This document shows, in pieces, positions 5,935-32,347 of a stretch of DNA of 64,000 bases (within the stretch, counting starts at the first letter, position 1; each line of letters opens with the position of its first letter). A program made the translations under genes and the position numbers. Source of the DNA: Alphaproteobacteria bacterium (lineage in GTDB: Bacteria; Pseudomonadota; Alphaproteobacteria; SHNJ01); NCBI GenBank assembly GCA_004295055.1, contig SHNJ01000012.1, positions 124,001 to 188,000 of the forward strand, given 5' to 3'. The notes beneath the pieces are model-generated. The model saw only the letters and a list, made by a program, of their open reading frames with translations. It ran no database searches and had not been told where the DNA came from.

Positions 5935-5975
5935 ACAAAAAACGGCCTGCCGGGTGAGCACTCCCAACAGGCCGT
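5935..5975 (-). terminator. Rho-independent terminator of the outer-membrane protein gene
   Basis: On the minus strand the stem ACGGCCTG (5968-5975) pairs with CAGGCCGT (5942-5949), with extra pairing in the loop, and a run of six T follows. It lies about 20 bp past the stop codon of the beta-barrel gene. Confidence 0.9.
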
Positions 5976-5993
5976 TTCTTTAGTCAGAGGAAA

Positions 5994-11274: not shown

Positions 11275-11676
11275 TCAATCTTGTCGCTGACGCAACCGTT
11301 CTATCAAAGCGGCCATTTCCCGATCCACAGGCAAAGGATGCTGATCGCCATGGCGCACTGTTTGAATATCATCGATAACTTTTAGTTTTTGTGCGCGTTT
11401 TAAAAGTTTCATTAAAAGTTCTCGTTCCCCCTCATTGTTTAATGCCACAAACCACCAATCTTGATGGGTAGACAAAGATCCTGGCGGTCCTTGTGGGCGG
11501 GATGGGGTGAATCCAACTTGTTGTAAAGTTACAAAAAGCTGCTGACGATGCGGATTTTCTTTTTCGCTAAATTCATAATTGACCATACGCCAACGAACCA
11601 CTTGCGGATAAAGCTTCGCGGCATCCGGCGGCGTGGCGCGTCTTCTTCCAGGTGCTTTTGGTGTTTTGGTGGTCAT
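11275..11676 (-). CDS. Unrecognised small basic protein between odhA and odhB (orf133)
   Basis: The 133-residue product has a Pro/Arg-rich N-terminus (KTPKAPGRRRATPP), then a mixed region with WRMVNYEFSEKENPHRQQLF and WWFVALNNEGERELLMKLLK, and a charged C-terminal helix. I recognise no family. Its ATG overlaps the odhA TGA (ATGA, 11673-11676), so it is probably translated with E1. No signal peptide or membrane segment is visible. Position suggests a link with the 2-oxoglutarate dehydrogenase complex, but nothing in the sequence proves it. Confidence 0.65.
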   Translation of the reverse strand: MTTKTPKAPGRRRATPPDAAKLYPQVVRWRMVNYEFSEKENPHRQQLFVTLQQVGFTPSRPQGPPGSLSTHQDWWFVALNNEGERELLMKLLKRAQKLKVIDDIQTVRHGDQHPLPVDREMAALIERLRQRQD

Positions 11677-14558
11677 GCGCCCAAGGCTTCTTTCACCAAC
11701 TTCGCCTGTTCTTCGTTATGGCGTTTATACGATCCGGTTGCCGGCGAGGCTGCTGCCGGGCGGCCGACATAGACTGGGCGGCCAGCCTTATGCTTGATCG
11801 CGGTCAATGTGCCTTCGATACGGCGGTCGAGGAAATTCCAAGCCCCCATATTTTCCGGTTCTTCCTGACACCAGATAATATCGGCGTTTTTGTATGGTTT
11901 CAGCACCGCTTGCAATTCCGCATCCGGATACGGGTAATATTGTTCGACCCGAATCAGCGCGACATCTTTAATGCCCTTGGCGGTACGGGCCTCTAGCAAG
12001 TCATAATAAACTTTGCCGGAACACAACACGACGCGCTTGCATTTCGCCGCGTCGATTTTTTCGGCCTCTGGAATGACTTTTTGGAACGAGGTTTTCGGCA
12101 AGAAATCATCGAGGGTCGAAACGCATAATTTATGGCGCAACAAAGATTTCGGCGTCATCAAAATCAGCGGTTTACGGAATGGCCGGTGCAATTGGCGGCG
12201 CAGCGCGTGGAAATAATTGGCTGGCGTGGTGCAATTGCCGACCACCATATTATCTTCGGCGCATAATTGCAGGAATCGTTCCGGGCGCGCGGAGCTATGT
12301 TCCGGCCCCTGGCCTTCGAATCCGTGCGGCAATAACAATACCAAACCACTCATCCGCAGCCATTTCGATTCGGCGGAGGAGATGAACTGATCGATCATCA
12401 CTTGCGCGCCGTTGACGAAATCGCCGAACTGACCTTCCCAGCACACTAGCGAGCGCGGTTCGGCCAGCGAATAACCATAATCGAATCCCATCACGCCAAA
12501 TTCGGATAATGGGCTGTCGCAGGCTTCGAATTCGGCTTGTTTATCGTTGATATGTTGCAATGGCAAATATCGTTCGGCATTTTTCTGATCGTGCAGAATG
12601 CAATGACGATGCGAAAATGTGCCGCGGCCGACATCCTGGCCGGAAATACGCACGCGATATCCCTCGGTCAACAAAGATCCGAATGCCAATGCCTCGCCGG
12701 TGGCCCAATCGAATCCTTCGCCGGATTCGAACATTTTTTTCTTGGCTTCCAATTGACGGGCGATTTTGGAATTCAAATTGAATCCTTGCGGCGTCGATGT
12801 GATCGCGTTGATCACCTGGCCCAAAACATCTTTTTTCACGCCGGTATCGACTTCATCCTTGGCGGATTTCGATGTGGAAAGGCCGCTCCACGCGCCTTCC
12901 AGCCAATCGGCCTTGTTCGGTTTGTACGATTGCGCGGCCTGATGTTCGCGTTCCATCATCGCGTTGAAATTATCGACCATCGCCTTGGATTCGCGTTCGG
13001 AAACAATTTCCTCGCGCGCCAATTGTTCGGCGTATTTCGCGCGCGTCGTCGGCATGGATGCGATTCTTTGATACATAATCGGCTGGGTGAATGCCGGTTC
13101 ATCGGTTTCATTATGACCCTGACGGCGGTAACATAACATGTCGACCACAACATCGCGTTTAAATTGCTGACGGAATTCGGCCGCCAAACCTGCAACATAA
13201 ACCACGGCTTCCGGATCGTCGCCGTTGACGTGAAAAATCGGCGCTTGCACGGTTTTCGCGACATCCGATGAATATGGCGAAGAACGGCCATAAGTTGGCG
13301 ATGTGGTGAATCCAACCTGGTTATTGATAATAAAATGAATCGTACCGCCGGTGCGATATCCCGGCAGATCCGAAAATCCAAAACATTCCGGCACGATACC
13401 CTGGCCTGCGAACGCCGCATCGCCATGCAATAACACGCCCAAAACCTGACCGCGTTCCCGGTCTTTTTTCTGGTCTTGTTTTGCGCGCACGCGGCCCAAT
13501 ACCACCGGATTCACGGCTTCTAAATGCGATGGATTAGGCGATAGGGTTAAATGCACCGACACGCCATCGAAGGTGCGGTCGCTTGAGGTGCCCAAATGAT
13601 ATTTAACGTCGCCAGATCCCTGCACTTCGTCCGGATTGGCGGAATTGCCTTGGAATTCGGATAAAATATTGACGTATGGTTTGCCTAAAACGTTGGCTAG
13701 CATATTCAAACGGCCGCGATGCGCCATGCCAAACACGATTTCTTTAACGCCCAGTTGGCCGGATTTTTTGATGATCTGCTCCATCGCCGGGATCAGCGAT
13801 TCGCCGCCTTCCAAACCAAAGCGTTTGGTGCCTGTATATTTAACCTGCAGAAATTTTTCAAAACCCTCGCCAGCGGTCAGCCGATCCAAAATCGCCCGTT
13901 TGCCAAGTACGGTAAAATCGCGGTGGCTGCGGTTCGATTCGACGCGGGATTGAATCCAGCCGCGCGCCTCGGGATCCTGCATATGCATGAATTCAATGCC
14001 GACATGGCCACAATAGGTTTGGCGCAACACATCCAGCAATTCGCGAATGGTAATGGTTTCGCGGCCATCGAACGCGCCGCCGATGAAAATCGGCCGGTCG
14101 TAATCCGATTCCGAAAAACCATAGGTACCAGGATCCAAATCCGCGTGATAGGCGGGCTGCATTAATCCCAGCGGATCAAGCTGCGCCAATAAGTGCCCAC
14201 GCACACGGTAGGCGCGAATCAACGACCGCGCTTGCATGGAATCGACAATCTGCGCCTTTAGCGCATCGGGCGTTACCACCGCAACGGCGGCATTGGTATT
14301 CGCCGAACCTTTACCAGCAGCCGGTTTAGTCACGTTACCGTCTGCCGCGCCGACGATTTTCCCAGGACGTTTGTTCCAACTTGCGCCCAGCATATCGGCG
14401 AGGGCCGATTTATCTTCATCGCCCAACGATCCAAAAAATTGCGACCACTGACTATCGACCGAATTGCGATCTTTTAAAAACTTGGCATAAAGTTCGGCGA
14501 CATATTCGCCGTTGCCGCCATATAAGAAAGAGCTGGATAAAGTTTGTTCGCGGGACAT
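11673..14558 (-). CDS. sucA: 2-oxoglutarate dehydrogenase E1
   Basis: This 961-residue thiamine-diphosphate enzyme decarboxylates 2-oxoglutarate and succinylates the E2 lipoyl group. Recognised segments are the N-terminal SSSFLYGGNGEYVAELY (E2-binding helix region), GMAHRGRLNMLANVLG, LHGDAAFAGQGIVPE (the ThDP pyrophosphate/Mg site), and LLPHGFEGQGPEHSSAR in the transketolase-like C-terminal half. Length matches the OdhA/SucA family. The start ATG at 14558 lies directly behind a hairpin whose AGGA is the only ribosome site (see terminator and promoter entries). It is followed by orf133 with a 4-bp overlap. Confidence 0.97.
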   Translation of the reverse strand: MSREQTLSSSFLYGGNGEYVAELYAKFLKDRNSVDSQWSQFFGSLGDEDKSALADMLGASWNKRPGKIVGAADGNVTKPAAGKGSANTNAAVAVVTPDALKAQIVDSMQARSLIRAYRVRGHLLAQLDPLGLMQPAYHADLDPGTYGFSESDYDRPIFIGGAFDGRETITIRELLDVLRQTYCGHVGIEFMHMQDPEARGWIQSRVESNRSHRDFTVLGKRAILDRLTAGEGFEKFLQVKYTGTKRFGLEGGESLIPAMEQIIKKSGQLGVKEIVFGMAHRGRLNMLANVLGKPYVNILSEFQGNSANPDEVQGSGDVKYHLGTSSDRTFDGVSVHLTLSPNPSHLEAVNPVVLGRVRAKQDQKKDRERGQVLGVLLHGDAAFAGQGIVPECFGFSDLPGYRTGGTIHFIINNQVGFTTSPTYGRSSPYSSDVAKTVQAPIFHVNGDDPEAVVYVAGLAAEFRQQFKRDVVVDMLCYRRQGHNETDEPAFTQPIMYQRIASMPTTRAKYAEQLAREEIVSERESKAMVDNFNAMMEREHQAAQSYKPNKADWLEGAWSGLSTSKSAKDEVDTGVKKDVLGQVINAITSTPQGFNLNSKIARQLEAKKKMFESGEGFDWATGEALAFGSLLTEGYRVRISGQDVGRGTFSHRHCILHDQKNAERYLPLQHINDKQAEFEACDSPLSEFGVMGFDYGYSLAEPRSLVCWEGQFGDFVNGAQVMIDQFISSAESKWLRMSGLVLLLPHGFEGQGPEHSSARPERFLQLCAEDNMVVGNCTTPANYFHALRRQLHRPFRKPLILMTPKSLLRHKLCVSTLDDFLPKTSFQKVIPEAEKIDAAKCKRVVLCSGKVYYDLLEARTAKGIKDVALIRVEQYYPYPDAELQAVLKPYKNADIIWCQEEPENMGAWNFLDRRIEGTLTAIKHKAGRPVYVGRPAAASPATGSYKRHNEEQAKLVKEALGA

Positions 14559-14562
14559 AAAA

Positions 14563-14590
14563 AAATCCTGAATGATTAGATTCAGGATTT
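14563..14590 (-). terminator. Rho-independent terminator of orf151, abutting the sucA start
   Basis: Perfect 11-bp arms AAATCCTGAAT/ATTCAGGATTT flank a 6-nt loop. On the minus strand seven T follow, ending at the sucA ATG. The AGGA of the distal arm is also the only Shine-Dalgarno-like sequence of sucA. Confidence 0.85.
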
Positions 14591-14616
14591 ATAGCAAATT
14601 ATGCAATTACTGTCAC
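14588..14616 (-). promoter_or_regulatory. Candidate sucA promoter overlapping the terminator
   Basis: On the minus strand GTGACA (14611-14616 complement) and TATAAA (14588-14593 complement) are exactly 17 bp apart. The predicted start at about 14580-14582 would remove most of the proximal hairpin arm from the transcript and leave the sucA ribosome site unpaired. Confidence 0.6.
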
Positions 14617-14632
14617 GATCAAGCGGCAAAAT

Positions 14633-15088
14633 TTAACGGCGACGTGGACCTTGTTGACCGCCAAGACCCAATAATTTCAATGCTTCAGGTGATGGTTGCT
14701 TCGCGGTTCCATTACTGCCACTTCCGCCCCGGCCTGTTATCTGTCTTGCTTCATTGGCATCGGGGCCGTCTGGAAAATAAGTAGAATACATTTCACACAG
14801 TAGGTGAAAATTTTTAGTAGCCATCGGCCATGTTGGCTTAGCCGACCATGAATTTAGACTTGTTAAATGTCCCCCAGAAACCCAACCTTTTTCTCTGTTT
14901 AACTGATCCGGTGTAGGAGCTTTTTGGCCTTTAGGCGGTTTAACTTTCAATGCTGCTTTACGTAATTCATCGTCACTACGCGCTTTTTGTAAAACTAAAT
15001 CAAACATTCGCTGATGCATAGCCACATCATCTAAAATTTGACCAGTATCCCGGGTTTGAGCCTGTGGCGCAACGGTTTGTGTCATCAT
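14633..15088 (-). CDS. Unrecognised protein between sucD and sucA (orf151)
   Basis: The 151-residue product has a helical charged N-terminal half (VAMHQRMFDLVLQKARSDDE, then KVKPPKGQKAPTPDQLNRE), a tryptophan-containing middle (WSAKPTWPMATKNFHLLCEM) and a Gly/Ser/Gln-rich tail ending GGQQGPRRR. No family is recognised, and there is no signal peptide or membrane span. It is flanked by its own strong promoter-like sequence (15128-15156) and a terminator (14563-14590), so it looks like an independent unit placed inside the TCA cluster. Two ATG codons are adjacent at the start. Confidence 0.7.
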   Translation of the reverse strand: MMTQTVAPQAQTRDTGQILDDVAMHQRMFDLVLQKARSDDELRKAALKVKPPKGQKAPTPDQLNREKGWVSGGHLTSLNSWSAKPTWPMATKNFHLLCEMYSTYFPDGPDANEARQITGRGGSGSNGTAKQPSPEALKLLGLGGQQGPRRR

Positions 15089-15127
15089 CTACCCACATTT
15101 ATTATTTAATATTAATATCTTACTAAG

Positions 15128-15156
15128 ATTGTATCTTAAAAGGATAGATACGTCAA
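15128..15156 (-). promoter_or_regulatory. Candidate orf151 promoter
   Basis: On the minus strand TTGACG (complement at 15151-15156) and TACAAT (15128-15133) have a 17-bp spacer, about 40 bp before orf151. It starts 10 bp beyond the sucD stop codon, next to a GC hairpin (GGCGGCTT/AAGCTGCC) that includes the stop. Confidence 0.65.
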
Positions 15157-15165
15157 GGCAGCTTT

Positions 15166-16053
15166 TTAAGCCGCCTTAACCTTTTTCATTGCCTCAAGCA
15201 TCGTTGTGCCCAGCGATGCTGGCGATTCGGAGACTAAATAACCGGCCGATTTCATGGCTTCGATTTTGTCTTCCGCTCCGCCCTTGCCGCCCGAAATGAT
15301 CGCGCCGGCATGGCCCATGCGGCGGCCCGGAGGCGCGGTGCGTCCAGCGATAAAGCCAACAATCGGCTTTTTCATTTTTTGCGATTTGACGAATTCGGCC
15401 GCGGTTTCTTCGGCGTCGCCGCCGATTTCACCGATCATGATAATGCCTTCGGTTTCAGGATCTTTGTAGAACAATTCCAGCACATCGACGAAATTAGTTC
15501 CGTTAACCGGATCGCCGCCAATACCCACACAAGTGGTTTGACCAAGACCCGCCGCGGTTGTTTGCGCGACCGCTTCGTATGTCAGGGTGCCGGAACGCGA
15601 AACGATACCGATTTTGCCGCGTTTGTGAATATGGCCAGGCATAATGCCGATTTTACATTCGCCTGGGGTGATAATTCCCGGGCAGTTCGGGCCGATCAAA
15701 CGGGATTTCGATCCGGTCAGAACGCGTTTGACCTTGATCATGTCGGTGACCGGAATGCCTTCGGTAATACAGACGATCAATTTAATTTCGGCTTCGATGG
15801 CTTCTAAAATTGCATCGGCGGCAAATGGTGGCGGAACATAAATAACAGACGCATCGGCCTTGGTGACTTTTGCGGCATCGCGCACCGTGTCAAACACCGG
15901 CAAATCCAAATGCTTGGTTCCGCCTTTGCCAGGCGTTACGCCGCCGACCATTTTAGTGCCATAGGCGATGGCTTGTTCCGAATGGAACGTGCCTTGTGCG
16001 CCAGTGAAACCCTGACAAATAACTTTGGTATCTTTGTTGACTAATACAGACAT
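15166..16053 (-). CDS. sucD: Succinyl-CoA ligase alpha subunit
   Basis: The 295-residue alpha subunit binds CoA ([14 protein letters not shown] at 17-30) and carries the phosphorylated histidine in [15 protein letters not shown] near residue 245. Together with SucC it converts succinyl-CoA to succinate with nucleotide triphosphate formation. Length and motif order match the family. It is separated from sucC by a 75-codon ORF, unlike most genomes, where the two genes are adjacent. Confidence 0.97.
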
Positions 16054-16074: not shown

Positions 16075-16302
16075 TTATGATTTTCTTCTTTCGCGGGAAA
16101 AATGCTCCAAGATTGCTGGCGCAATTTTGCCACGAAACCGGCGCGGAATATCGGCAACGGAGCGCAGAATCATTTCCGCTGGCGGAGTAGAAGGCATGCC
16201 GGCAAATTGCGCCCAGGAGTGATACGCGGCAGCAAACGGAGTTGCCGGAACCAAACGGCCCTTAACCTCTTGCACTACTAAACCGCCGCGACTGAACAAC
16301 AT
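16075..16302 (-). CDS. Unrecognised 75-residue protein between sucC and sucD
   Basis: This small protein (RGGLVVQEVKGRLVPATPFA, then HSWAQFAGMPSTPPAEMILR and a basic C-terminus ending SRERRKS) matches no family I know. It begins 15 bp after sucC and ends 21 bp before sucD, so it is certainly cotranscribed with them. AGAGGAAATC lies just before the ATG as ribosome site. It might be a small accessory subunit or a passenger; the spacing favours real translation. Confidence 0.6.
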   Translation of the reverse strand: MLFSRGGLVVQEVKGRLVPATPFAAAYHSWAQFAGMPSTPPAEMILRSVADIPRRFRGKIAPAILEHFSRERRKS

Positions 16303-19813: not shown

Positions 19814-20161
19814 AATATGGTCTTATCGGTCTAAATCATTGAGATCAAGCGATTTCCCCTAAACCGTACCATGATTGACGCGCATAAGTTTTTTATAAAT
19901 CGCGCCAGGGAATCCCCCGCGCCTAGAGCTGAAACAATATCCATATCTGACTGAGATATAAACTTAATCGTCTCTTTTTAGAATAAAATTTCTGTAAATT
20001 AAAATATAATTACACAATTTTAAATTTTAGACGTGTTTTCAACAATTTTTTCCGTTATTTCATAAATTTAATGTCGGTATGCAAAATTTGCATTTGACGC
20101 TATGACATATTTCTGTAACTTTCTACGGCTGTTAAGGAAATTAGTTAATAGAGAGGGAATT
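19814..20161. other. Intergenic, zapE to orf257
   Basis: About 350 bp without a gene. It becomes strongly A+T-rich after 19960. A perfect TATAAT occurs at 20005-20010 but no convincing -35 is placed 16-18 bp before it. TTGACG at 20094 could serve the plus-strand gene. No repeat or RNA gene was recognised. Confidence 0.5.
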
Positions 20162-20935
20162 ATGACTAAAACGTCTGTCATCAATAATCGCCATCGCACC
20201 AAAAATAGGTTGCAAAAGACCTATAGTGGTGCTGCGGTAGTTGCCGCCGCCATTTCATTGGGGGGAACTACAGGAGCAGTCACGGCTGCCCCACAGCCAG
20301 ATCGCGTAGTTTATGTTGCATCACATGCCAAAAAATCTAGACCTACTGAACCCGTGGCAGATACTTATTTGATGCATCAATTAGCCAGCAAGCGGAATGA
20401 TAATGGCAGATTAATCATTCGCGCACCTGACAGTGAAACTGAGATTAGAAGCAAAGAAGGATTCAATCTTGACTTATTTTTGGATGAAATTGCAAGACTT
20501 CGTTTAGACCGCAAAATTATTGAACAAACCACCCCGACCCAAAAAACTTGGCGGCAACAGAATGTGGAGGCAATGATTAATGCTATTTTTGTGGAAAGTG
20601 ATCGCTGGGGTGAAGTAAATGAAACATTGGGTAGAAATAGAGTTTATTTACCTCGACCGACACTAGCAACAGTGCAATCGGTGGAAGATTGGTTAAAAAC
20701 ACCAGTCGTACAAAGAAAAATTGCAGCTAAAATGAGAGAATTAACTAATTCTGGAAATATTATGGCCGGGCCATTGGCGCATGATTTAGCCGTAGTTGTC
20801 CGCGATGTCGCTATGGACGCGCATCCGCGTGGGAAAGATCGTAGAATTAAACCTCGGATAACCACGCATGCAAGAGAAACCGTGGAAGCAGCTCTAGTGT
20901 ATGCTGCTAGCTCCCCCAATTCCAGAAGAAGATAA
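20162..20935 (+). CDS. Unrecognised exported or membrane-anchored protein (orf257)
   Basis: The ATG at 20162 follows GAGAGGG at good distance and is preferred to the ATG-less extension upstream. The 257-residue product has a basic N-terminus, then a hydrophobic Ala/Gly segment (about 22-43, GAAVVAAAISLGGTTGAVTA) ending AAPQ, which looks like a signal peptide with a long n-region. The rest is charged and mostly helical (LDLFLDEIARLRLDRKII, VEDWLKTPVVQRKIAAKM). No family is recognised. Codon choice looks more A+T-rich than in the neighbouring metabolic genes, suggesting accessory origin. A terminator follows. Confidence 0.7.
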   Translation: MTKTSVINNRHRTKNRLQKTYSGAAVVAAAISLGGTTGAVTAAPQPDRVVYVASHAKKSRPTEPVADTYLMHQLASKRNDNGRLIIRAPDSETEIRSKEGFNLDLFLDEIARLRLDRKIIEQTTPTQKTWRQQNVEAMINAIFVESDRWGEVNETLGRNRVYLPRPTLATVQSVEDWLKTPVVQRKIAAKMRELTNSGNIMAGPLAHDLAVVVRDVAMDAHPRGKDRRIKPRITTHARETVEAALVYAASSPNSRRR

Positions 20936-20955
20936 ATAAAATATGATTGATATAG

Positions 20956-20984
20956 CCGGCGGCATAAAAACCGCCGGTTTTTTT
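20956..20984 (+). terminator. Rho-independent terminator of orf257
   Basis: CCGGCGG (20956-20962) pairs with CCGCCGG (20971-20977) across an 8-nt loop, and seven T follow. Confidence 0.92.
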
Positions 20985-32272: not shown

Positions 32273-32300
32273 AAAAAAGCGGGGCAAAACCCCGCTTTTT
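32273..32300. terminator. Bidirectional Rho-independent terminator
   Basis: AAAAAAGCGGGG (32273-32284) pairs with CCCCGCTTTTT (32290-32300) over a 5-nt loop. A/T runs on both sides let it serve both the methyltransferase and rplS transcripts. Confidence 0.9.
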
Positions 32301-32347
32301 CTGTATCTAAACACCAATCACGATTAGGCGCTGGCGGTTTTTTTCCC

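Follow-up and report, generated by a model that had tools for sequence, protein, structure and literature searches.

A terminator-like hairpin overlapped by a predicted promoter at the start of sucA in a little-sampled alphaproteobacterium

How might a core gene of the TCA cycle be expressed when its Shine-Dalgarno (SD) sequence lies within a hairpin resembling a transcription terminator, and when an open reading frame of no recognizable ancestry stands between it and the preceding gene? The question is raised by the sucD-sucA junction of a little-sampled alphaproteobacterium, which we examined in a 64,000-nt stretch of contig SHNJ01000012.1 (positions 124,001 to 188,000; hereafter the window, whose coordinates are used throughout). 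A first-pass annotation had described here a self-contained cassette, in which an orphan ORF with its own promoter is followed by a terminator that the sucA promoter overlaps. Each of these promoters, the ORF, the hairpin and their overlaps was found again at its place on the minus strand; the regulation that they suggest is plausible, partly supported and has a known precedent.

Read directly in the direction of transcription, the junction begins with the end of sucD (15166..16053, succinate--CoA ligase alpha subunit; NCBIfam PRK05678 above cut-off), whose TAA stop codon (15168-15166) lies 9 bp upstream of the -35 hexamer of a predicted promoter for the orphan, orf151 (15128..15156; TTGACG at 15156-15151 and TACAAT at 15133-15128, 17 bp apart, 10/12 matches; start expected at ~15121). 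The 151-aa ORF itself (14633..15088, by ORF call and coding-frame score) is followed by a predicted sucA promoter (14588..14616; GTGACA at 14616-14611 and TATAAA at 14593-14588, again 17 bp apart; start expected at ~14581), by a perfect 11-bp hairpin identified in a terminator scan (14563..14590), by a run of seven T (T7, 14559..14565) and, directly 3' of that run, by the ATG of sucA at 14558 (11673..14558, 2-oxoglutarate dehydrogenase E1; NCBIfam PRK09404 above cut-off). The sucA product is 76% identical to its counterpart in G001, the only other genome of the family, and its start fits the N-terminus of that protein (SREQ...).

Bare hexamer matching recovers one promoter where 1.6 are expected, such that the hexamers alone are not significant. 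When both strands of the window are scored with a weight matrix, the predicted orf151 promoter comes 4th and that of sucA 21st among 127,930 positions; relative to composition-matched segments, P is 0.008 and 0.038, respectively. The matrix approximated the E. coli consensus and gave extra weight to an extended -10. The sucA promoter has such an extension, a TG at 14596-14595, one base upstream of the -10 (TGC-TATAAA), which the first-pass annotation had not recorded. Our search for literature on the sucCDAB operon promoters of alphaproteobacteria returned nothing useful. A dyad (AAGAT-ACA-ATCTT-AGT-AAGAT; 15117..15137, minus strand) overlaps the orf151 promoter at its -10; at up to two mismatches it has two matches in the window, both at this -10, against 0.09 expected. 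It is a possible operator, and a genome-wide search for a recurrent operator found no second occurrence of its exact form.

The hairpin downstream of the second promoter (14590-14563; arms AAATCCTGAAT and ATTCAGGATTT with loop CTAATC between) comprises 11 pairs, three of them G-C, closed by a 6-nt loop, and its proximal arm occupies 14590-14580. It shares bases with its neighbors on both sides: the stem begins with the last three A of the TATAAA and ends with the first three T of the T7. The sucA SD, AGGA (14566..14569), lies within the distal arm, and the T7 is both the prospective terminator tail and the spacer between SD and start codon. The earlier description of a perfect 11-bp stem with T7 after it was borne out, four of the seven T lying past the stem. 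With an energy of -11.4 to -11.9 kcal/mol and a z-score of about -5 to -7, the hairpin has the lowest z among 81 sucA leaders. It has 0 matches within three mismatches in shuffled windows and no second copy in a genome-wide search, and among the 15 AGGA-T5-ATG sites in the genome an 11-bp hairpin occurs only at sucA. A search of Rfam up to E = 5 placed no known RNA family at this hairpin.

In that a stem-loop is followed by a T-rich tail, albeit one partly within the stem, the structure has the form of an intrinsic (Rho-independent) terminator. It shares with such terminators a perfect stem, a short loop, a T-run and a position downstream of an ORF, but differs from them in the low G-C content of its stem, in a T-run that reaches the next start codon and in a stem that overlaps a promoter. 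Because terminators of this kind are found at gene ends elsewhere in the window (e.g., 5937-5980, 20954-20979, 32273-32301), the organism plausibly uses intrinsic termination; with three G-C pairs and four T beyond the stem, the sucA hairpin is weaker than most of them. T-rich SD spacers without such a hairpin also exist elsewhere in the genome, so that the T7 taken alone could be an ordinary spacer.

Folding predictions indicate what the hairpin would mean for translation. In the leader of a read-through transcript, the AGGA bases have a predicted unpaired probability of about zero, and the predicted pairing places AGGA (14569-14566) in a stable stem of upstream-initiated RNA. Because the orf151 stop codon lies 42 nt upstream of the hairpin, a ribosome ending translation there is unlikely to open it. 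The predicted sucA start at 14581 falls inside the span of the proximal arm, and RNAs starting at 14579-14583 cannot form the 11-bp hairpin; in these short RNAs, weak pairing is still predicted between AGGA and a GUCC in the opening codons (-3.6 to -4.4 kcal/mol). Two claims of the first-pass annotation can be weighed against these predictions. The claim that read-through RNA hides the sucA ribosome site agrees with the geometry and with the predicted folding, both of which bury AGGA, though the interpretation as a whole is only partly supported. That RNA from ~14581 leaves the site free holds insofar as loss of the proximal arm would abolish the hairpin, but is too strong, since AGGA would still be weakly paired (-3.6 kcal/mol).

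The explanation that we favor, and consider somewhat more probable than otherwise when taken as a whole, is that an orphan gene with its own promoter is followed by a terminator with an embedded sucA promoter, and that the SD is masked in read-through RNA. Transcription of orf151 would start at a sigma-70-type promoter of its own, next to the sucD stop codon, and the hairpin and T7 would end sucD/orf151 transcripts at the sucA start codon or immediately upstream of it. Transcription of sucA would proceed mainly from the extended -10 promoter overlapping the proximal arm, yielding a leader of about 23 nt that lacks this arm and can be translated. Any upstream RNA reading through would carry the whole hairpin, hold AGGA within it and be poorly translated for sucA, making masking a second barrier to read-through behind the terminator. 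SucA output would thereby be set apart from that of sucCD and orf151. Judged from sequence, sucA is probably controlled separately, in both transcription and translation, through the hairpin and the promoter that it overlaps.

Such control has been described in phage T4. For gene e (lysozyme), soc and I-TevI, RNA begun at promoters farther upstream sequesters the SD in a stem; late promoters positioned over the 5' arm produce RNAs that lack this arm and are translated (PMC3014915, PMC2988022). The likeness to our locus consists of an SD in the stem of the upstream RNA and a promoter, here predicted, over the 5' arm. The T4 cases are phage genes with late promoters, a switch in time and experimental demonstration, whereas sucA belongs to the core TCA cycle, the predicted promoters here are of the sigma-70 type, and the hairpin, known from sequence only, is also a terminator candidate. 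The control logic proposed for sucA is thus already known, being that of T4 gene e and I-TevI. In the fold-back inhibition of IS10 and IS50, likewise, external transcripts hide the transposase ribosome site, and RNA made from the element's own promoter leaves it exposed; at sucA, by contrast, there is no transposase or terminal repeat, and mobility is unsupported. A more ambitious reading, which we hold tentatively and at less than even confidence, is that a segment of about 60 bp acts as upstream terminator, sucA promoter and read-through translation lock, such that a gene of core metabolism would answer only to its own promoter. It is possible, to the same limited degree, that this segment represents the logic of T4 gene e fused with a terminator.

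Structured RNAs upstream of suc genes have been reported in other bacteria, namely the sucA motif of Burkholderiales (RF01070), sucA-II (RF01758) and sucC (RF01759), for which cis-regulation was proposed (PMC4603805, PMC2864571). The present leader resembles these in its position but differs in consisting of one simple hairpin with no covariance-model match up to E = 5. When 80 related alphaproteobacteria are compared, the tendency to form a hairpin is greater in the 42 nt preceding sucA than at the corresponding place upstream of sucB, sucC or mdh (P about 1e-7, 5e-5 and 1e-10, respectively), with a less clear difference from sucD (P = 0.02); these P values are nominal, the sequences being related. 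Eight of 59 non-redundant sucA leaders (L005, L008, L011, L013, L023, L031, L037 and L050; 60 nt upstream of sucA) show an SD-like AGGGA/GAAGG, a GC-rich hairpin and the ATG in that order and lack an SD at its normal distance. Shuffling predicts 0.36 such leaders, and the other four genes give 0/152; a looser count gives 25/81 versus 4/242. The taxa include Azospirillum, Inquilinus and MAGs with leaders resembling those of Oceanibaculum and Elstera, and several of the Azospirillum leaders are ambiguous because a GAGG immediately 3' of the stem might act as an ordinary SD. The leaders of this kind are reminiscent of T4 genes 38 and 25, whose start sites are split; the window's own sucA leader differs from them in having its SD inside the stem. 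The leader hairpins of six relatives matched no known RNA family at gathering scores. A MAFFT alignment of the relatives' leaders visibly misplaced the stems, and no covariation is claimed from it.

The closest comparison is with G001, in which the sucD-sucA gap measures 131 bp, contains no ORF and has neither the hairpin nor the promoter arrangement. Because this only family relative lacks the arrangement, conservation cannot be used as a sign of selection. In most relatives the gap is 19-316 bp. That of G001 is filled by an inverted heptamer-repeat element, (AGCGTAT)n, which has at least 50 matches per strand in that genome, in many cases arranged as inverted arrays with about 100 bp between them (at L002 1243-1267 and 1346-1363, and on many other contigs), and for which a search of the window's genome found no match. 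Orphan ORFs also occur at other junctions of these genes: one of 75 aa with a good SD between sucC and sucD (16075-16302, minus strand) and one of 133 aa overlapping the sucA stop codon between sucA and sucB (11275-11676, minus strand), the latter with a weak match to PaaX_M (Cas2-like) below cut-off. Another ORF with AT-rich codons (20102-20935, plus strand; GC3 0.34) has only a sub-threshold esterase match.

Whether orf151 is a gene at all, and if so whether it arrived as part of a mobile unit, bears on how the junction is to be read. If the frame had arisen by chance in AT-rich intergenic DNA and no protein were made from it, its lack of homologues, weak SD and poor single-sequence fold (mean pLDDT 45.5) would be accounted for. 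We regard this as decidedly improbable: Markov simulations of the gap yield an ORF of at least 151 codons in 0.035% of trials (P = 0.00035), the frame scores about 5 sd above shuffles and is the best of the six for coding, and GC1 (0.57) exceeds GC3 (0.305, against a GC3 of about 0.55 in neighboring genes). By these measures orf151 is probably a real gene. As part of the favored explanation, and with the same slight preference, we take it to be an expressed, lineage-specific orphan. The first-pass annotation's term "orphan" was borne out, no relative having turned up in any collection searched: there were no homologues in 96 relatives or in 385 genomes of the class (overlapping sets), nor in phages and plasmids, and pattern scans, which detect close relatives only, gave none in 85k species or viral contigs. 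No match came from PHROGs, NCBIfam or PADLOC, the best Pfam match (E 0.011) was below cut-off and the best PDB match (E 1.9) was not usable, such that neither family, fold nor solved structure suggested a function. Because few relatives have been sampled, orphan ORFs are expected here and are not strong evidence of a special operon. Low G+C (about 42% vs 52%), AT-rich codon usage and absence from G001 are what a mobile cassette of orf151 and its flanks would lead us to expect, but this origin is very improbable. The locus has no terminal repeats, the search for orf151 elsewhere in its own genome, intended as a check on mobility, found no second copy, the wider collections gave no homologue, and the two other orphans at suc junctions are laid out as operon genes usually are, with an SD or an overlap. 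The "self-contained cassette", understood as a mobile unit, is therefore unsupported.

The remaining alternatives accept the sequence elements and dispute their role. Under one, which we think rather unlikely, this is an ordinary gene boundary, where a plain orf151 terminator and a plain sucA promoter were packed together by compaction; the SD would have come to lie in the stem simply because terminator and start codon are directly adjacent, and masking would have no regulatory role. That gene-end terminators are usual in the window, that both promoters score well and that nothing is conserved in G001 all agree with this account, but against it speak the close packing of -10, stem and SD into some 60 bp and the standing of the hairpin as the strongest outlier among 81 sucA leaders. 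Masking may have been selected or may be a by-product of packing. Under the other, sucC-sucD-orf151-sucA are co-transcribed, the promoters are chance matches and the hairpin adjusts how sucA is translated or how the mRNA is processed. Despite the recurrence of hairpins directly upstream of sucA in the 80 related alphaproteobacteria and the known sucA RNA motifs of beta- and gammaproteobacteria, we find this improbable: with the SD buried and no ribosome arriving from the orf151 stop codon to open the stem, sucA would be poorly expressed unless a trans-acting factor intervened, the promoter scores are high, and the known motifs do not match.

If the favored explanation, with a promoter embedded in the terminator hairpin and the SD masked in read-through RNA, is true, then the promoter-in-hairpin switch of phage T4 also serves a chromosomal gene of central metabolism, and a new gene could settle in a core operon when its own terminator is paired with a replacement promoter for the gene downstream. 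More broadly, the leaders of sucA in Rhodospirillales and their kin suggest themselves as a place to seek hairpin-assisted translation starts.
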